Of a stretch of 38,235 bases of DNA, positions 25,171 to 33,850 are shown one piece after another. The translations under genes were made by a program, and so were the position numbers. Each line of letters starts with the position of its first letter. Position 1 is the stretch's first letter. The stretch lies in IMG/VR virus record IMGVR_UViG_3300002514_000018, positions 28,861 through 67,095 of that record. One strand, given 5' to 3'. Under the pieces are notes generated by a model. It was not told where the DNA came from. It ran no database searches and saw only the letters and a list, made by a program, of their open reading frames with translations. Source of the DNA: a virus.

Positions 25171-27099
25171 ATGGGCGCATTATTAAAAGGGATCATCATC
25201 TTGTCGATCCTCGCAATAACCTCTTGCGGGGATACCATGCTTGCTACGCCTGTGCTAGATATGACCACTGATGTCCCTCAAGCTCAAAACGAGGAACCCA
25301 AGTCAGTGGTCCCTTCTGAGCAGTACAAGCTTGATTGTTATCGTACAGAATATTATTTCTGCCCTGGAGTAAGTGGTCCTTTGTTCCGAGTTGAAGTGTT
25401 GAAGGATATTTGCAAAGATCCGCCAGAAGTTCTATACATTAGTGAATGTGAGGAGTTCTTGGAATGCAACCCCAGTAATTTTCATATGGGCGAAGAACCT
25501 TGCACAACTGATAACGGGTTACCTGGAACCAAAAAGATTTATTGTGACAAGGGACACATCAAAGAAGGTCAATGTGAAACCGACTGCGTGGAAGAAGTTT
25601 GTGACGGCCTCGACAACGACTGCGACGGAGAGATAGACGAAGACCAGCTTAACGCCTGCGGAGAATGTGGCATTGAACCTCTAGACGTGTGCGATGGCGT
25701 TGATAACGATTGCGACGGCGTCGTCGATGAAGATTTAGTTCGGCCTTGTTCCACAATATGTGAAGGCGGCTATGAAACTTGTGTCGAAGGGGATTGGGTT
25801 TCCTGTACTGCCAAACAGCCACAACCCGAAATGTGTGACGGCATCGACAACGATTGTGACGGCCAAATTGATGAAGGTCTGGACTGTCTATGTACCATAC
25901 AACAAATTGGAACTCTTTTTCCTTGCGAAGAATCACCTCTCCTATGCGGTTCAGGATATAAATCTTGCGAATGCAAAAACGCTGATTGTACATCTTTAGG
26001 ATTTACTCCTTGTTATGCCCCTTGCTACTGGATAGATGCTAACGATCCTAATTGCGATATTTATGGCGGCGACCCATTGCCTTATGAAATGTGCAACAAC
26101 CATGATGATAATTGCAATCAACTGGTGGATGAAGACTTATATGATTTTTGTTACACAGGGCCACCTCAGACTCTTAACGTGGGTATTTGCATAGGCGGAT
26201 CAGTAACTTGTAAACAAGGGCAGTGGGGAAATTATACGGATGATGGATATTTTGTCTTAGGATACTGCAAGGGTCAAGTGACTCCATTGCCTGACGACGA
26301 GTGCAATGGAGAAGATGAAGACTGCGATGGAAAAGTGGACCAGGATAAAGAAATGCAGGATACCGACATTTTGTTTATTGTCGATTGGTCTGGATCTATG
26401 GGATCTGAGATAGAAGCCGTTTTGATTGCTCTTAATGAATTCGCCAAGAACTATTCAGATGAAGAAGTTATTCAATGGGGGCTTATAGTTGGTCCCCGCA
26501 CACCTAATGACTGGGGCCAATTAAATTACTTGGAGATTGTAAGCGACCTGGCTTCTTTTGAAGATTTTATGTATAGTTTTTCGTCATTAGACAAAGATTC
26601 TATGAACGGTCAGTTCGAAATGTTGTATGATGCAGTATATCTATCTTTGCTAGACCTTTCATCATCGGAACCTTGGCAGCTTGATGAGTTGACTTGGGCC
26701 ACGATGGTGGGGAACGCGATTAAAGAGTCAAAACCTAAACTGGAAAACTTTAAACTCTCTTGGCGACCTAATGCCAAAAGAGTGCTAATCGTGTTTTCCG
26801 ACGAACACGGACAAACCTATATGCTTCCAAAATCAACAGTCCTTAAAGGAACGTGGAACACCAACGAAGATGGAGTAACACAAGATATATTATTAAATAT
26901 GATTGCAACCGCCCCAGACACCACTATATACACCTTCAGCACGAAGGGCAGCAAAAACTCTTCGATGCCCTACGGAGCAACTGGCTGGGAGCCTCTTTCT
27001 ATAGCTTCCGGTGGTAAGTGGTTTCAATTGCTTCACAGTTCTACTGAGATGTACAACAATCTAATGGAAATTATCGATTCAGAAGTATGTGGCGAATAG
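25171..27099 (+). CDS. Secreted lipoprotein with MopE-type repeats and vWA domain
   Basis: 642 residues. The signal peptide ends in a lipobox (IAITSCG, Cys19), with acidic low-complexity sequence after it. Five Cys/Asp units of the form CDGxDNDCDGxxDED start near residues 144, 174, 222, 308 (degenerate) and 378. These are the MopE/putative metal-binding motif seen in Myxococcota and methanotroph surface proteins, and they probably bind Ca or other divalent metals. A von Willebrand A domain follows, with a MIDAS motif D405-W-S407-G-S409 and a C-terminal IYTFSTKGSK region. Even cysteine spacing suggests disulphides outside the cytoplasm. It is a host-type surface protein in a phage replication cluster, 8 bases before an FtsZ-like gene. 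Function unknown. Confidence 0.85.
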   Translation: MGALLKGIIILSILAITSCGDTMLATPVLDMTTDVPQAQNEEPKSVVPSEQYKLDCYRTEYYFCPGVSGPLFRVEVLKDICKDPPEVLYISECEEFLECNPSNFHMGEEPCTTDNGLPGTKKIYCDKGHIKEGQCETDCVEEVCDGLDNDCDGEIDEDQLNACGECGIEPLDVCDGVDNDCDGVVDEDLVRPCSTICEGGYETCVEGDWVSCTAKQPQPEMCDGIDNDCDGQIDEGLDCLCTIQQIGTLFPCEESPLLCGSGYKSCECKNADCTSLGFTPCYAPCYWIDANDPNCDIYGGDPLPYEMCNNHDDNCNQLVDEDLYDFCYTGPPQTLNVGICIGGSVTCKQGQWGNYTDDGYFVLGYCKGQVTPLPDDECNGEDEDCDGKVDQDKEMQDTDILFIVDWSGSMGSEIEAVLIALNEFAKNYSDEEVIQWGLIVGPRTPNDWGQLNYLEIVSDLASFEDFMYSFSSLDKDSMNGQFEMLYDAVYLSLLDLSSSEPWQLDELTWATMVGNAIKESKPKLENFKLSWRPNAKRVLIVFSDEHGQTYMLPKSTVLKGTWNTNEDGVTQDILLNMIATAPDTTIYTFSTKGSKNSSMPYGATGWEPLSIASGGKWFQLLHSSTEMYNNLMEIIDSEVCGE

Positions 27100-27107
27100 A
27101 GGTTTAA

Positions 27108-27953
27108 ATGGATACTGTTATTGGACTCGGCAGCGCCGGGTGTAATATTGCGGAAAAATTTGCAGACTATCCGCAATATAAGATTATAAAAATAGATTCA
27201 GAGCGACGAGCATTTGATTGGCTTAACAAGGATTTTAAACTAATCCCCAAGCAATCCTCTCCTGAAGCTTATGAGGAACACTGTCCTTTCTTAGATGATA
27301 TGATCGAAGAATCAGGAGAAGATATCCTCTTTATTATAGGAGGAGGCGGCAAAATATCTGGTGCTGCCTTGCGTCTTTTACAACAATTAAGAGAAAAGAA
27401 GATAAGCATCCTGTATATTCAGCCTGATACAGATCTACTGGCCAAGACAGCCAAAATGCAGGAACGTCTGGTATACGGTGTTTTGCAACAATATGCTCGA
27501 TCAGCTATTTTGGAGCGAATATACCTCGTTAAAAATACGGCCATTGAGACCATCCTGGGTGATGTATCTATTACAGAGTATCACGATAAGATTAATGATT
27601 TTTTGGTTTCTGCTATGCATATGACCAACATTTTTGAACACACGGACCCAGTGACATCGAATTTTGAAGACCTTAGCCCGGTTTGTCGCATTTCGACTTT
27701 CGGAATGGTCAATTTAGAGACTGGCGAAGAAAGCTTATTTTTCCCCTTGAAGTTTCCGCGAGAAAAGCTATATTATTATGCAATAAATGAGGAAAGCTTA
27801 AGGGAAGACAAGGCTCTCCATAAAAAGATAGTGCAACAGATAAAATCTAAAATAGATAATAAAGAAATTAGTGTAACTTATGGAATTTATTCCACTGAGT
27901 ATGAGAACGATTACGTCTATTTGGTTTCTAATGCAAGTTTTATTCAAGAATAG
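27108..27953 (+). CDS. FtsZ/tubulin-like GTPase
   Basis: 281 residues. N-terminal VIGLGSAGCNIAEKF (G6-L-G8-S-A-G11-C-N13) fits the FtsZ/tubulin GxGxxGxN nucleotide start. FIIGGGGKISGAALRLLQQL (75-94) fits the glycine-rich T4 loop (GGGTGSG) and its helix. ITEYHDKINDFLVSAMHMTNIF (about 155-176) fits helix H7 (xxxFxxANxVLxxAVxGI). The T4 loop has Lys-Ile for Thr-Gly, and the C-terminal activation domain seems short. Jumbo phages use PhuZ to position DNA, but this protein is not obviously PhuZ. GAGG at 27099-27102 precedes the ATG, suggesting coupling to the lipoprotein gene. Confidence 0.6.
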   Translation: MDTVIGLGSAGCNIAEKFADYPQYKIIKIDSERRAFDWLNKDFKLIPKQSSPEAYEEHCPFLDDMIEESGEDILFIIGGGGKISGAALRLLQQLREKKISILYIQPDTDLLAKTAKMQERLVYGVLQQYARSAILERIYLVKNTAIETILGDVSITEYHDKINDFLVSAMHMTNIFEHTDPVTSNFEDLSPVCRISTFGMVNLETGEESLFFPLKFPREKLYYYAINEESLREDKALHKKIVQQIKSKIDNKEISVTYGIYSTEYENDYVYLVSNASFIQE

Positions 27954-27964
27954 AGAAAATCCTA

Positions 27965-27992
27965 TTGACTCTTAAGTCACAGGCGGTATAAT
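27965..27992 (+). promoter_or_regulatory. Sigma70-like promoter with overlapping palindrome
   Basis: TTGACT (27965-27970), 16-base spacer, TATAAT (27987-27992). The -35 overlaps TGACT-CTTA-AGTCA (27966-27979), a 5-bp inverted repeat that could be an operator. It would start transcription near 28000, about 110 bases before gp32, in the window's largest gap. Confidence 0.65.
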
Positions 27993-28108: not shown

Positions 28109-28852
28109 ATGGCTATTAATATGGACAAAATGAAGCAGAAACTCGAAAATCTGCAAGGAAATGGAAACAAGAAGAGTGCCTTTTGGCGTCCTCAAGACGG
28201 TGAACAAGTGATCCGTATTGTCCCGACCCCAGACGGTGACCCGTTCAAAGAATATTGGTTTCACTATAATTTAGGAAACAACCCCGGCTTTCTTAGCCCA
28301 AAGAAAAACTTTGGTGAGGACTGCCCATTGGACAACTATGTCCGCGATCTCTACCGCAACGGCGACGACGACAGCATTAAGATGGCCAAGAACCTCTCGG
28401 CCCGACAACGCTTCTTCTCCCCAGTGGTTGTTCGCGGAGAAGAAGACCAGGGCGTCCGTATTTGGGGATTCGGAAAGATGGCCTATCAAGAGCTTTTAAA
28501 CCTGGTTCTTAATCCTGATTATGGCGACATTACTGATACCGATGAAGGAACTGATCTGGTTATCAAGTACGGAAAGCCTCCTGGTGCTCAATTCCCTCAG
28601 ACCTCTATCACCCCACGTCGAAAAACTTCCAAGCTTTTTGATGATGATGAAAAGATCTCTGAGGCCTTAACTACCATTCCTGATTTCGATACTGTTTTCG
28701 AAAAGAAATCGCCTCAAGACGTTCAAGGAATGTTGGATGAGTTCATCGCAAGCCAGTTGAGTGACGATGATGTAGAAGAAGTTTCTACGGAAAGTCAAAA
28801 ATATGGTGGAGATGCCATCGACAGTAAATTTGACGAATTGATGCAGGAATAA
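28109..28852 (+). CDS. 32: Single-stranded DNA-binding protein, gp32-like
   Basis: 247 residues. Basic N-terminus (DKMKQKLENLQGN), then FWRPQDGEQVIRIVPTPDGDPFKEYWFHYNLG and FLSPKKNFGEDCPLDNYV, the region that holds the zinc site in T4 gp32 (His64, Cys77, Cys87, Cys90). Here the matching positions read His52, Ser63, Cys72 and Asp75, so two of three Cys ligands are missing. The C-terminal tail is acidic (SDDDVEEV...SKFDELMQE), as needed for partner interaction. It coats ssDNA during replication and recombination. It is driven by its own sigma70-like promoter and AGGAGA, and followed after 8 bases by hairpin element copy 1. Confidence 0.88.
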   Translation: MAINMDKMKQKLENLQGNGNKKSAFWRPQDGEQVIRIVPTPDGDPFKEYWFHYNLGNNPGFLSPKKNFGEDCPLDNYVRDLYRNGDDDSIKMAKNLSARQRFFSPVVVRGEEDQGVRIWGFGKMAYQELLNLVLNPDYGDITDTDEGTDLVIKYGKPPGAQFPQTSITPRRKTSKLFDDDEKISEALTTIPDFDTVFEKKSPQDVQGMLDEFIASQLSDDDVEEVSTESQKYGGDAIDSKFDELMQE

Positions 28853-28860
28853 TAGTCTGT

Positions 28861-28891
28861 CCGCAGGAAGGCATGGGGTTACAGATGCCTT
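28861..28891 (+). repeat. Stop-proximal hairpin element, copy 1
   Basis: Box CCGCAGG (28861-28867), 7-bp stem AAGGCAT (28868-28874) with ATGCCTT (28885-28891), loop GGGGTTACAG. It begins 8 bases after the gp32 stop codon and ends 23 bases before the next ATG. A T-run follows at 28893-28899, so this copy could also terminate transcription. Confidence 0.9.
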
Positions 28892-28914
28892 ATTTTTTTA
28901 AAAAGGAAAGAATA

Positions 28915-29439
28915 ATGATTAAGAAAATTGTATTATGTATGCTGATTATTGGTACTACCATACCTACATACGCTCAAGCGCAGCCTCAACCTCCCCCCGA
29001 TAAGACAGAAAGCGAATGGAAAAGCCGTTATGGCGTCCGCTTTGGTTATTCTTATTTGAACAAGGGAGAACAAGTTGAGAGCCTAAGCAGTCCTCACTCG
29101 TTCCTCTTGGGATATGAAATGCAACAAACCCTGGATGGGGGCGAATGGCTGGACATTTTATTTGTGGAGAATATCTCTGTAGGCGGCTTGGATCAAAGCG
29201 TCTTCTCTCCATCACTTAGCTTGTTGGTGGGTTTTGAATTTGCTGACCGTCTCCAAGTGGCTGTTGGTACAAATATTTCCCCTGTTGATCCCGCCGATGA
29301 CGATAAATATATTCATCTCATTAGCGCGATTGGATACACAGCAGCAGTCGGGCGGTTCAGCCTGCCTATTCACCTTACCTTTATTCCAGATGTAAATGGA
29401 TTTTGGCGATGTGCGGCTACTGCTGGCGTGAACTGGTAA
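28915..29439 (+). CDS. Small exported beta-barrel-like outer membrane protein
   Basis: 174 residues from ATG 28915 (AAAGGA ahead; an earlier in-frame start at 28873 would lie inside the hairpin element). Residues 1-22 are a signal peptide (MIKKIVLCMLIIGTTIPTYAQA). The mature part has alternating hydrophobic residues: VRFGYSYLN, SFLLGYEMQQTL, SLSLLVGFEFADRLQVAVG, and it ends in Trp (AATAGVNW), typical of outer membrane barrels, although it is small (about 8 strands). Barrel proteins of this size in phages could alter the host surface or block superinfection; this is inference. No specific family recognised. Confidence 0.65.
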   Translation: MIKKIVLCMLIIGTTIPTYAQAQPQPPPDKTESEWKSRYGVRFGYSYLNKGEQVESLSSPHSFLLGYEMQQTLDGGEWLDILFVENISVGGLDQSVFSPSLSLLVGFEFADRLQVAVGTNISPVDPADDDKYIHLISAIGYTAAVGRFSLPIHLTFIPDVNGFWRCAATAGVNW

Positions 29440-29447
29440 TTTTAAAA

Positions 29448-29478
29448 CCGCAGGGAGGCACGGGTTTACAGGTGCCTC
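29448..29478 (+). repeat. Stop-proximal hairpin element, copy 2
   Basis: Box CCGCAGG (29448-29454), 7-bp stem GAGGCAC (29455-29461) with GTGCCTC (29472-29478), loop GGGTTTACAG. It starts 8 bases after the upstream stop and ends 28 bases before the FKBP ATG. CTTTTT follows. Confidence 0.9.
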
Positions 29479-29506
29479 GTCTTTTTAAACAAAACAAGGA
29501 TTTTAA

Positions 29507-29944
29507 ATGAGTATGATTAAAGAGGGACATAATGTGAAGGTCCATTATAAAGGCACATTGACTGATGGCACTGAATTTGATAATTCAAAAAGTAGGGGAG
29601 AACCCATTGAATTTCAAGTTGGTACAGGACAGATGATTAAAGGGTTCGATAGCGCTGTTCAGGGAATGGGCCTCGGTGAAGTAAAAACGTTTACCGTCCC
29701 TTCTGGTGAAGCATACGGATCTGTAAATCCCGAAGCTATCAAAGAGTATCCTAAGACTGTCTTCCCACCTGACTTTACTTTCACTGTGGGAGGAATGGTA
29801 CACGGGACAACGCCTACTGGGCAACCTGCAATGGCCACCATTGTTTCACACGCCGACGAGTCTGTGGTCTTAGACCACAATCATCCCTTGGCAGGTGAAG
29901 ACCTCACTTTTGAGGTTGAAGTGATTGAGATCGAGGGCGAATAA
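29507..29944 (+). CDS. FKBP-type peptidyl-prolyl isomerase, SlyD-like
   Basis: 145 residues. Starts VKVHYKGTLTDGTEFDNS (FKBP strand and bulge), then GTGQMIKGFDSAVQGMGLGEVKTFTVPSGEAYG, the FKBP core with Ile and aromatic pocket residues. An insert-in-flap region follows (PKTVFPPDFTFTVGGMVHG...VSHADESVVLDHNHPLAGEDLTFEVEVIEI), which includes the SlyD signature DxNHPLAGxxLxFxVxV. It probably catalyses proline isomerisation and chaperoning in the cytoplasm. There is no metal-binding His-rich tail. It lies between two hairpin elements; the reason for a phage copy is unknown. Confidence 0.88.
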   Translation: MSMIKEGHNVKVHYKGTLTDGTEFDNSKSRGEPIEFQVGTGQMIKGFDSAVQGMGLGEVKTFTVPSGEAYGSVNPEAIKEYPKTVFPPDFTFTVGGMVHGTTPTGQPAMATIVSHADESVVLDHNHPLAGEDLTFEVEVIEIEGE

Positions 29945-29952
29945 CCCTTGAC

Positions 29953-29985
29953 GCGCAGGGAGGGCACGGCGATACAGGTGTCCTC
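29953..29985 (+). repeat. Stop-proximal hairpin element, copy 3
   Basis: Box GCGCAGG (29953-29959), 8-bp stem GAGGGCAC (29960-29967) with GTGTCCTC (29978-29985) including one G-U pair, loop GGCGATACAG. It starts 8 bases after the upstream stop. This is the most diverged copy, yet spacing, loop length and loop end (TACAG) are kept. Confidence 0.85.
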
Positions 29986-29989
29986 CAGG

Positions 29990-30033
29990 TTTAAAGTGCC
30001 TGGATTAAGTCCATATTGGCCCGAAACTTTAAA
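29990..30033 (+). promoter_or_regulatory. Possible folded 5' leader of the ParB-like gene
   Basis: Directly after copy 3, TTTAAAGT (29990-29997) can pair with ACTTTAAA (30026-30033), enclosing GCC/GGC (29998-30000 with 30018-30020) and TGGA/TCCA (30001-30004 with 30010-30013). The leader between copy 3 and the ATG is 79 bases, three times longer than at the other copies. Confidence 0.35.
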
Positions 30034-30064
30034 TTTTGATATTTTAATATAAGGAGAAAATAAA

Positions 30065-30970
30065 ATGTCTGTAGAATTAATCGGGAACGCTATGTTCCCC
30101 GCTGAAGTTAAAGAACTTGGTAAACCTGGATGGTATGGCGAGATTGATGTGAACATCAAAAGTCTTGTCAATCGAGAGACCAAGGCGTCACACGTCAAAA
30201 AGCTACTTAAGAATGGCTTTGACTGGAAAAAGTTTACGCCTCCTCTTATCGCCGTATTTCCTGATAGGAGAGAATATCTTCTAGATGGAGACCATCGCCG
30301 TGCGATGTTTCGCATAACTTTTCCTGATAAAGAAAGCATACCATGCTTTAGAATCGAAGTAGAATCAGAGCAAGAGTATCACAGGCTCTTCGCTCAGATC
30401 AACTGGGAAAGTAGAAAAACGGCGACCAAAGATGAAGTTTTTGTACACAAGGTGCTGGCAGAGGATGCCACCGCCGTTGCAACTGCTTTAGCCTTGAGAC
30501 GGTGTGGGCTTAGTGTTTACGGCTCCCCTGATGAATATGGGACCGTGGGTTGTTCACAAGCCAAGAGAACTACAGTTGGGTCTTTTATAAAGTCCTACAA
30601 GCACGGCGAGTCGAATGTCAGTATGGCAGCAAGCTTGCTAAGCAAAACTTGGGCTGATGATGAAAAGATTCAGGGCGAGTTGTTAGAAGCTGTAGCTATC
30701 TTATTTAAAGTTCACCCTAGCTTCAGTGATGGTTCAAAAATTGAAAAAGATTTCAAGGACTGGTTTTTAAATTATGTTTCAATGCGTACTCAATACGTTG
30801 CAGCAACAGATTATAAAACCAAAGGAGGCCGCATACACCATAAGCACGGTGAGTCTCTGGCTCACGGTATTATTATGGAATACCGCAACTCTAGAGTCCC
30901 TGGCGGATGTACTGTGAACTATAAGCGGAAAATCGTTAAGCTTCGCAATACTGCTGTCCTCTTAGAATAG
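30065..30970 (+). CDS. ParB/sulfiredoxin-fold-like protein of unknown function
   Basis: 301 residues. Residues 60-105 (LIAVFPDRREYLLDGDHRRAMFR...ESIPCFRIEVESEQEYHRLFAQIN) show the pattern of ParB-like nuclease-fold domains: a strand, L(L/I)DGxHR, then a short strand with IPC and an alpha/beta end. The ParB/Srx superfamily (including phage DUF6551-like proteins) binds nucleotides or DNA. A helical C-terminal 180 residues contains no motif I know. AAGGAG at 30052-30057 precedes the ATG. Located between gp32 and uvsX, it may act in replication or in control of these genes, for example at the hairpins around it (speculative). Confidence 0.6.
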   Translation: MSVELIGNAMFPAEVKELGKPGWYGEIDVNIKSLVNRETKASHVKKLLKNGFDWKKFTPPLIAVFPDRREYLLDGDHRRAMFRITFPDKESIPCFRIEVESEQEYHRLFAQINWESRKTATKDEVFVHKVLAEDATAVATALALRRCGLSVYGSPDEYGTVGCSQAKRTTVGSFIKSYKHGESNVSMAASLLSKTWADDEKIQGELLEAVAILFKVHPSFSDGSKIEKDFKDWFLNYVSMRTQYVAATDYKTKGGRIHHKHGESLAHGIIMEYRNSRVPGGCTVNYKRKIVKLRNTAVLLE

Positions 30971-30978
30971 CTTTTTCA

Positions 30979-31008
30979 CCGCAGGGGGGCACGGGTTACA
31001 GGTGCCCC
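30979..31008 (+). repeat. Stop-proximal hairpin element, copy 4
   Basis: Box CCGCAGG (30979-30985), 7-bp stem GGGGCAC (30986-30992) with GTGCCCC (31002-31008), loop GGGTTACAG (9 bases). It starts 8 bases after the upstream stop and ends 23 bases before the uvsX ATG. There is no T-run, so it is not an ordinary terminator. Confidence 0.9.
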
Positions 31009-31031: not shown

Positions 31032-32138
31032 ATGACCAAAAAAGCAACCAAAATAGGTCGATTAAGCCTAACCGAGATGAGAAACTTAATCAATAAAAAA
31101 GTTGGAATGAACGTCGCACACGACTTGACGAAAGACAATCCCACGGCAGTAAAGCAGTGGATCCCCACTGGCTCCCGCTATTTGGACTCTATCATATGTC
31201 GCGGCAAAAAAGCAGGAATCCCGGTTGGCAAAATTACAGAAATTGCTGGGCTAGAAGGCGCTGGAAAATCTTGGATGGCAGCCCAAGTCGCCACAAGTGC
31301 TCAAAAGATGGGCATTGATGTAGTTTATTTTGATTCTGAATCTGCTATTGACCCTGGTTATTTAGAAAGCTTAGGTGTTGACCTTGACCATTGTTTATAT
31401 GTTCAGGCCACCTCTGTGGAGATGGTTCTTGAAACCATTGAAGAACTTTTAGGATCCAACGAGGGCCAGATGCTCTTTATTTGGGATTCTTTGGCACTGA
31501 CGCCAGCCATCTCAGACGTTGAGGGGGATTTCAATCCTCAATCCTCTATGGCTGTAAAAGCTCGGATCTTGGCTAAAGGGATGTCAAAGTTGACAGTTCC
31601 GATTGCGAACACGCAGTCAACCTTTTTGGTTTTGAATCAGCTTAAAACCAATATTGCTTCTAATCCTGCCCAGAGAATTGAGGTAATGACCAATCCTTGG
31701 GTTACTCCTGGCGGAAAAGCAATGCATTATGCATATTCTTTGCGAATATGGTTGACTGGCCGAAAGTCTAAGTCCTCCTTTATTATGGACGGCGATGACA
31801 GGATTGGTTATCAAGTGCAGGTAAAACTTGAGAAATCACGTTTTGGAACAACAGGGAGAAAATGCCACTTTAACATACTATTTACTGGACAAAAACCTGG
31901 AATCCAAGATGAAGAAAGTTGGTTACACGCCTTAATGGGTTCCGATAACATTGTCCAATCAGGAGCCTGGTACACATTAATGTACAAAGACGGATCATCA
32001 GAAAAATTTCAAAGCAAGACGTGGCCTAAAAAGTTACAAAATGAAAAGTTTCGTCAAAGAGTTCTTGAATTAATGGACGATGAAATCGTCAAAAAGTATG
32101 ACCGAAAAATGGAAAAGGTCGATTCAAAAGGAGAATAA
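31032..32138 (+). CDS. uvsX: UvsX recombinase (RecA family)
   Basis: 368 residues from ATG 31032 with AAGGA at 31021; a GTG at 31002 is inside the hairpin element. Walker A is G73-LEGAGKS80 and Walker B is MLFIWDS (147-153). The catalytic Glu is in DSESAIDP (101-108), and a LNQLKTNI loop after the Walker B matches the RecA L2/switch region. UvsX forms filaments on ssDNA coated by gp32 and drives strand exchange and recombination-dependent replication. The next gene starts 1 base after the stop, with a GGAG ahead of it. Confidence 0.88.
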   Translation: MTKKATKIGRLSLTEMRNLINKKVGMNVAHDLTKDNPTAVKQWIPTGSRYLDSIICRGKKAGIPVGKITEIAGLEGAGKSWMAAQVATSAQKMGIDVVYFDSESAIDPGYLESLGVDLDHCLYVQATSVEMVLETIEELLGSNEGQMLFIWDSLALTPAISDVEGDFNPQSSMAVKARILAKGMSKLTVPIANTQSTFLVLNQLKTNIASNPAQRIEVMTNPWVTPGGKAMHYAYSLRIWLTGRKSKSSFIMDGDDRIGYQVQVKLEKSRFGTTGRKCHFNILFTGQKPGIQDEESWLHALMGSDNIVQSGAWYTLMYKDGSSEKFQSKTWPKKLQNEKFRQRVLELMDDEIVKKYDRKMEKVDSKGE

Positions 32139-32869: not shown

Positions 32870-33832
32870 GTGAAAAAAGATCGTTGTCTGGTGATAGATA
32901 TGTTTAATATGTTCTATCGTGCGTGGATAGTTGACCCCTCGTTGTCTGTGAATGGACACCCCATCGGAGGACTAAAGGGTTCTTTAAAAATATTACAAAA
33001 GCTTATGAGAGAGACACAGCCCAACAGGGTATTCATATGTTGGGACGGCCCAGGCGGTTCGCAACGTCGTCGCTCAATTAACAAGAATTATAAAGAAGGA
33101 AGAAAACCAGCCAAGGTAAACTGGGATAGTTCGTTCTTATCCCCCGAGGCGAAGGAAGAGAACAGAAAATGGCAACAGATTCGACTGATGGAATATTTTA
33201 ATTCTATGCCTGTGTGCCAACTACTTCTCCCCTCGGTCGAAGCGGATGACATTGTATCTTATGTGGCTAGCTCACCTCATTTGAAGGGTTGGCAGAAAAT
33301 TATCGTTTCAAGCGATAAGGATTTCTTTCAGCTTCTTACTTCGGAGACGATTCTGTATCGCCCGATTCAGAAGCAACTTCTTAATGAGAAGGACATCTTG
33401 ATCAACCACAAGATACACCCTCAGAATATGGCCCTTGCTCGGGCCATTGTAGGAGATAAGAGCGATAATCTTCCTGGGATTGCAGGCGTGGGCCTCACAA
33501 CGGTGGCCAATAGATTTCCTTTCCTATCGGAAGAGAAATCTTACACAGTGAACGACATTGTAAAACATTGTGAAAATGCGAATTCTAAGGCCCGAGCTTA
33601 TTCTAATATCATTGAAGGAGCCGACCTGATAAGAGAGAATTATAAAATGATGCAGTTATACAGCCCCAGCATCAGCGTCCAAGGCAAGCTATACTTGAAA
33701 GAAGCGATCCAAAATTGCGATGTTTCTTTTAACAAGACTGAGATAAAGAAGATGATGATTCAAGATGGGTTCGGAGAGTTTAACTGGATCGATCTTTACC
33801 AGATTTTTAATCGGATTTCGGTTGATAAGTAA
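32870..33832 (+). CDS. rnh: 5'-3' exonuclease / RNase H, FEN family
   Basis: 320 residues from GTG 32870 with GAGG ahead. Metal ligands of PIN/FEN nucleases: D10 in VIDMFNMFYRAW, D59 in FICWDGPGGSQRRR, E124-x-D126-D127 in SVEADDIVSY, D149-x-D151 in VSSDKDFFQLL. The helix-three-turn-helix DNA contact GDKSDNLPGIAGVG is at 195-208. It resembles T4 RNase H, which removes RNA primers and flaps. It complements the polymerase-only family A enzyme at 23971, which lacks nuclease domains. The N-terminal arch contains a basic segment (residues 66-82) for 5'-end binding. Confidence 0.88.
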   Translation: MKKDRCLVIDMFNMFYRAWIVDPSLSVNGHPIGGLKGSLKILQKLMRETQPNRVFICWDGPGGSQRRRSINKNYKEGRKPAKVNWDSSFLSPEAKEENRKWQQIRLMEYFNSMPVCQLLLPSVEADDIVSYVASSPHLKGWQKIIVSSDKDFFQLLTSETILYRPIQKQLLNEKDILINHKIHPQNMALARAIVGDKSDNLPGIAGVGLTTVANRFPFLSEEKSYTVNDIVKHCENANSKARAYSNIIEGADLIRENYKMMQLYSPSISVQGKLYLKEAIQNCDVSFNKTEIKKMMIQDGFGEFNWIDLYQIFNRISVDK

Positions 33833-33850
33833 GAGTCAACTTGCTATAAT
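33822..33850 (+). promoter_or_regulatory. Sigma70-like promoter, helicase operon
   Basis: TTGATA (33822-33827), 17-base spacer, TATAAT (33845-33850) with extended -10 TTGC just before it. It overlaps the 3' end of the exonuclease gene. The identical TTGCTATAAT occurs at 37121-37130. Confidence 0.7.

Follow-up and report, generated by a model that had tools for sequence, protein, structure and literature searches.

Gene content of the gp32–uvsX interval

The stretch of viral DNA analysed here (the window, 38,235 nucleotides) comes from a 75,057-base IMG/VR record that encodes a tail sheath protein, so the phage is a myovirus. The region around its gp32-type gene contains the following features.

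27965–27992, forward strand: sigma-70-like promoter, TTGACT-16-TATAAT, upstream of gp32 (consensus match only)
28109–28852, forward strand: gp32-type single-strand DNA-binding protein (SSB) gene (PF08804, E 3e-14; phrog_1192, E 2e-24)
28915–29439, forward strand: putative membrane or secreted protein gene (no family match; inferred start)
29507–29944, forward strand: FKBP-type peptidyl-prolyl isomerase gene (PF00254, E 1e-24)
30065–30970, forward strand: ParB-like/DUF6551-like protein gene (phrog_1033, E 1e-5; PF20188, E 3e-4, below the cut-off)
31032–32138, forward strand: UvsX/RecA-like recombinase gene, which closes the gp32–uvsX interval (phrog_97, E 7e-55)

For the membrane or secreted protein gene, an alternative, longer reading frame from 28873 would overlap the first of the RNA elements described below. 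The next forward promoter match as strong as that of gp32 lies at 33822, where a strong sigma-70-like sequence with an extended TG (TTGATA-17-TATAAT, 33822–33850) is found upstream of a DnaB-like helicase gene; a sigma-70-like consensus scan found no good forward match at the four junctions that carry the element.

Ahead of gp32, positions 25171–27099 encode a 642-aa protein in which three MopE-type metal-binding repeats (PF11617) and a weak match to VWA are found, and positions 27108–27953 a 281-aa protein with a weak TrkA_N match. In most loci bearing the element, the gene of the latter is the immediate or nearly immediate upstream neighbour of gp32. In relatives, the gp32–uvsX interval repeatedly contains genes of small Thr/Asp-rich lipoproteins, and an FKBP-type prolyl isomerase gene is present in this interval also in loci L007, L013, L042, L101 and L114. 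The MopE-type repeat protein and the lipoproteins are reminiscent of deltaproteobacteria-like hosts.

Four copies of a hairpin element

A preliminary description of this DNA had reported four related hairpins in the interval, each starting exactly 8 nt past a stop codon. All four are indeed present, with every box at that distance.

28861–28891, forward strand: copy 1, box CCGCAGG, stem AAGGCAT/ATGCCTT, loop GGGGTTACAG, followed by ATTTTTTT; upstream stop TAA, 28850–28852
29448–29478, forward strand: copy 2, box CCGCAGG, stem GAGGCAC/GTGCCTC, loop GGGTTTACAG, followed by GTCTTTTT; upstream stop TAA, 29437–29439
29953–29985, forward strand: copy 3, G-type box GCGCAGG, 8-bp stem GAGGGCAC/GTGTCCTC, loop GGCGATACAG, a G1:C3 swap; upstream stop TAA, 29942–29944
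30979–31008, forward strand: copy 4, box CCGCAGG, stem GGGGCAC/GTGCCCC, loop GGGTTACAG, followed by ATTTCACA; upstream stop TAG, 30968–30970

The 7–8 bp stems form stable, G+C-rich hairpins (minimum free energies of −9.6 to −18.6 kcal/mol), and copy 3 is followed by a second hairpin (CCAGG..CCTGG). After the stops that precede copies 1 and 2, a second in-frame stop comes at once or one codon later (TAATAG; TAATTTTAA). A covariance model built from the four copies matched only those four in the 75-kb record (E 4e-8 to 2e-6), in keeping with the first impression that the window has no clear copy elsewhere.

A covarying stem and an H-type pseudoknot

The stems had been said to differ always by paired changes, as expected of a selected RNA fold, and a larger sample bears this out. 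Among 63 distinct sequences, 99.3% of the stem cells are paired and 83 cells show double changes, counts that were matched in 0 of 500 shuffles, and sliding the stem partner by one column brings the pairing down to 54–59%. In an unbiased scan, for which the box and the loop were fixed, A was forbidden at the sixth stem base and the 3′ strand was left free, 75 distinct places were obtained; 61 of them pair at 7/7 positions and the other 14 at 4/7 at most. All 61 fully paired places have C:G instead of A:U as their sixth pair.

The box and the loop also change together, since copies of the GCGCAGG type have a loop GGC and those of the CCGCAGG type a loop GGG. In the 185 contexts that were parsed, the pair formed by box base 1 with loop base 3 is C:G in 165 and G:C in 20, with no other combination, in a table that is partly selected because two of the contributing scans fixed both positions. 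Where neither position was fixed, every context with G at box base 1 has C at loop base 3 (copy 3, L065, L077, L088/L127, L118, L128 and L306, the loop of L306 having been parsed by eye and not automatically). Because these two bases covary, the element is an H-type pseudoknot rather than a plain hairpin. Box base 2 did not change in the fixed-length scan, so only one of the two S1 pairs can be tested by covariation. An S1 partner slid by one column was rejected, as pairing is then lost in the G-type copies, which fit only the register given here.

Further loop features accompany this pairing. An A at box base 3 goes with an extra loop A in 9 of 11 cases. A larger loop, with the additional bases placed between GGG and the conserved ..ATAG end, is present in 8 copies, with an apparent hairpin in several of them. 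A possible divergent copy below the sensitivity of the model (L322, 4262–4330; ACCGAT-GGCAGAC-CGGGTTGTGAATA-GTCTGCC) has kept the CC and the loop GGG. The fold, as shown by comparison of the copies, consists of a pairing between CC of the 5′ box and GG of the loop, a 7-bp stem, and conserved GCAGG and UUACAG joining strands; its pairing and loop features favour an RNA over a DNA site.

Occurrence in viral contigs and databases

A pattern scan of viral contigs gave at least 120 stretches, and among the matches listed, 68 distinct places have the stem according to a script filter; stretches that lack it look like chance matches in coding sequence. Covariance-model searches of the viral contigs yielded 109 copies from 76 sources and then 134 more from 90 sources, for a total of 243 copies in 186 distinct contexts. 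Since hundreds of copies exist in other viral contigs, the element is far beyond chance. Larger records (57–193 kb) have one to four copies each, mostly clustered.

The Rfam check named in the preliminary description returned no Rfam 15 match at the gathering score in the window, and sub-threshold matches in the region had E values of 3 to 10. A blastn search of the cultured phages in INPHARED with the 38-nt consensus found none, and the covariance model had no match in the cultured gp32 phages T4, Syn30, LysYB2, Mel-JY01 and Immuto, each an empty answer of little weight on its own. About 85,000 bacterial and archaeal species genomes gave only 2 matches, by which a host-derived element was rejected, and no description of the motif was found in the open-licence papers searched. 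The element is described here as a putative new RNA of about 31 nt, strongly conserved and recurrent in uncultivated phages.

A small pseudoknot with invariant joining strands, spread over unrelated phages, could be a riboswitch or the site of a host factor such as a ribosomal protein, RNA polymerase or an RNase. Its size is like that of several riboswitch aptamers, and it shares both size and pseudoknot topology with the small H-type riboswitches (SAM/SAH and preQ1 classes). However, these differ from the element by its lack of an Rfam match, and the scarcity of matches in the species genomes implies that the hosts seem not to use it. The neighbouring genes point to no single metabolite, and the 3′ strand of the stem does not co-vary with the downstream Shine–Dalgarno sequence, so that no switch is visible. 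A switch that sequesters the Shine–Dalgarno sequence was rejected, as duplexes with it had energies no better than permuted ones, whether formed by the stem 3′ strand or by the upstream spacer. We regard this explanation as unlikely; for the riboswitch and the mRNA-processing site suggested at the outset, no specific support has emerged.

Genes next to the element

To look at position, 80 gp32 loci were retrieved by the gp32 protein and not by the element. The element lies downstream of gp32 in 59 of them, always on the gene strand; it was found in none of the 80 upstream of gp32 or past the uvsX start, and never on the opposite strand. The gene maps follow the layout gp32 – E – (gene – E)n – uvsX – exonuclease – DnaB, where E is the element. 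The confinement to gp32–uvsX junctions first noticed in the window is found among its relatives as well, and the element is placed almost only between gp32 and uvsX.

Outlying copies do occur, for example in L284 (a 180-kb record), behind a gene judged MoxR-like by eye. In the unrelated phages L088/L127/L261, the element is 3′ of a gene whose 212-aa product, in a model of low confidence (pLDDT 54), matches PrgE (E 6e-5, probability 1.00), an OB-fold SSB (PMC11137577). One unrelated phage type carries the element, then, after a gene predicted to encode an SSB-like OB fold. In the L118 group, it lies between the gene of a 440-aa protein and a helicase gene that precedes an SSB gene. Upstream of the element in L248, L255 and L259 is the gene of a 208-aa protein (phrog_4652), with a C-terminal GxGxxxxxGxG stretch (GIGASRRIGFG) that resembles the glycine-rich loop of RAMP (Cas6/Cas7-type) proteins; its low-confidence structure model gave no significant Foldseek/PDB match.

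Extra genes inserted between gp32 and uvsX come with copies of the element, and unrelated phages have it too, as would be expected of a feature that acts at the DNA level, namely a mobile hairpin or a recombination site that spreads along with gene cassettes. On the other hand, in the mapped loci they lie on the same strand as the genes and mostly just past a stop codon, and a pseudoknot pairing with a G-free tail makes sense for an RNA. We consider such a DNA-level role very unlikely; cassette-wise spread could be the way in which the element travels.

Spacing to the stop codon and the 3′ tail

The 8-nt spacing is local to the window. In 150 of 181 contexts, the stop-to-box distance is 6–15 nt with a mode of 7 (7 nt 38 times, 9 nt 27 times, 10 nt 26 times and 8 nt 21 times), a distribution by which an exact 8-nt rule was rejected, and in relatives it has a sharp lower edge at 6–7 nt. 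In long intergenic gaps most copies stay near the stop (8/80 nt before and after the element for copy 3, and 7/98 nt for L243), and several copies lie far from the upstream stop and close to the next start. The distance from the element to the next start is usually 16–33 nt (median 27), some large values being an artefact of the start-codon rule, which requires a Shine–Dalgarno sequence. Runs of C often make up the spacer that separates stop and box (for example CCCCCCCCCG; L317, L320, L338 and other gp32 loci), perhaps the remnant of a plain G/C hairpin.

From the exact distance, the preliminary description had proposed an RNA that acts on the terminating ribosome, which would be by readthrough, recoding or reinitiation. 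The spacing in the window and the sharp lower edge in relatives would agree with this, but there is no fixed value, some copies are far from any stop, and the genes before copies 1 and 2 end in double in-frame stops. The fixed spacer with an open frame beyond it that a readthrough or recoding pseudoknot would have was not found. This proposal is largely refuted, and we judge it the least probable of all those considered.

Past the element, A occupies position +1 in 83% of copies, G does not exceed 2% from +2 to +7, and U reaches 55–72% at +4 to +7; the whole of +1 to +7 is free of G in 165 of 185 contexts. The +4 to +7 region is where a weak RNA–DNA hybrid matters for intrinsic termination. 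Nevertheless, many copies would be poor intrinsic terminators, because a T-run of 5 or more is present in only 47 of 185 and copy 3 has none.

Exchange with plain hairpins

Among the 21 gp32 loci without a model match, 14 have a plain hairpin past the stop of gp32. These hairpins are mostly strong, and several combine UUCG or GNRA loops with T-runs (for example GGGGGGC-TTCG-GCCCCCC-TTTTTTT); T4 gene 32 likewise has a classical terminator-like hairpin 3′ of it. A further one of the 21 is L322, with its possible divergent copy. When the element label is mapped on an IQ-TREE phylogeny of 70 gp32 proteins, 9 changes are needed, of which well-supported branches force at least 6, and several clades contain the element form and the plain form as sisters. 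L302 groups with the window (support 95/65, the bootstrap being not fully settled), yet has a plain hairpin. As shown by this comparison, the two forms have replaced each other repeatedly in one slot, and this interchange is our main argument that the element may do the job of the plain hairpin; slot equivalence is a shared place, not a shared activity.

The element has in common with the T4 gene 32 terminator and the sister plain hairpins its location after the gp32 stop and ahead of the next gene, a GC-rich stem and a U-leaning tail. The latter differ by a plain stem, often a tetraloop, a stronger U-run, and the absence of a conserved box, loop or pseudoknot. The earlier statement that the copies are not simply terminators is supported; plain terminator-like hairpins fill the same slot in sisters. 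Of the outcomes that had been named as speaking against a new RNA, variable spacing and plain hairpins in the slot did come about, whereas the covariation holds and an Rfam match is absent.

Comparison with the T4 gene 32 operator

The main rival explanation is that the phage SSB binds the element as a translational operator, by analogy with T4 gene 32. The SSB would nucleate on the pseudoknot, spread over the unstructured A/U-rich tract and cover the ribosome-binding site of the next gene, and would in this way make uvsX and the further downstream genes respond to free SSB. The T4 gene 32 leader pseudoknot (UGCC-A-GCUAUGA-GGUA-AAGUG-UCAUAGC; PMC3014915, PMC535899; the layout, without an L2, is our own reading) has the H-type layout to which stem covariation and the swap between box base 1 and loop base 3 point in the element, and the T4/T2/RB69 operators also share its CC:GG core, 7-bp second stem, A/U-rich stretch towards the ribosome-binding site, and SSB gene. 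In addition, the element is linked to an SSB in two unrelated phage types (gp32 and the PrgE-like OB fold), and the next start is usually close.

In contrast, the T4 leader has an L1 of 1 nt instead of 5 nt, the sequences are unrelated, and the covariance model has no match in T4. The T4/T2/RB69 operator is upstream of gene 32, whereas the element is always downstream of gp32 and in none of the 80 loci in its leader. Moreover, copies in long gaps mostly sit near the upstream stop and not the downstream start, the element is present in phages whose SSBs are not gp32, and it interchanges with plain hairpins. Since the T4 leader shares the layout and SSB genes recur as neighbours, we keep this operator as a possible, if rather unlikely, explanation. 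A protein-binding operator, for gp32 or the ParB-like protein, had been among the first suggestions, and may still prove right.

It is similarly tentative to suppose a new class of regulatory RNA, a 31-nt pseudoknot to which a phage factor, either the SSB or a common partner, would bind. It would sense free SSB, set at every junction how strongly the recombination operon downstream of the SSB gene is expressed, and have been taken up in parallel by phages whose SSB families are unrelated.

T4-type phages also have PeSL (promoter-stem-loop) cassettes, in which a stem-loop past the stop codon is followed by an early promoter and which are tied to gene insertions. The element resembles them in its place just past the stop and its link to insertions, but usually only about 16–33 nt separate it from the next start, and no promoter was seen there.

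Proposed role

Taken together, we favour, with a probability of about one half, that the element is a sequence-conserved, pseudoknotted form of the intercistronic terminator-like hairpin, that is, a leaky attenuator or 3′-end element. It is an RNA module of about 31 nt that lies 3′ in the cistrons of phage mRNAs, most of all in that of gp32. Its H-type pseudoknot precedes a 7-nt tract that lacks G and leans towards U, and it is placed roughly where the reach of the terminating ribosome ends. We infer a role in termination or 3′-end protection because T4 gene 32 has a terminator-like hairpin and because of the tail. A leaky intrinsic terminator of this kind would also leave a stable mRNA 3′ end; the SSB would be made in excess over UvsX and over the products of the genes inserted between, while read-through would feed the rest of the operon. 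That successive junctions of the window carry copies with no good promoter match between them counts in favour of the attenuator. Against it, a terminator needs no invariant GCAGG box, UUACAG loop or pseudoknot, and several copies are far from a stop and near the next start. The extra sequence conservation may stem from the tertiary fold of the pseudoknot itself and/or from a binding factor.

The element is a compact, strongly conserved RNA present in more than 100 viral contigs and missing from Rfam and from the five cultured gp32 phages searched. It may represent a pseudoknotted alternative to the ordinary terminator hairpin, with which it exchanges in one genomic slot, and this exchange makes the question of what the knot adds directly testable by a swap. 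The gene 32 pseudoknot of the T4 type was considered possibly the only viral example in translational autoregulation in a 2010 review, which called for the study of diverse T4 relatives (PMC3014915). A widespread pseudoknot is now tied to the same gene, gp32, on its other side.
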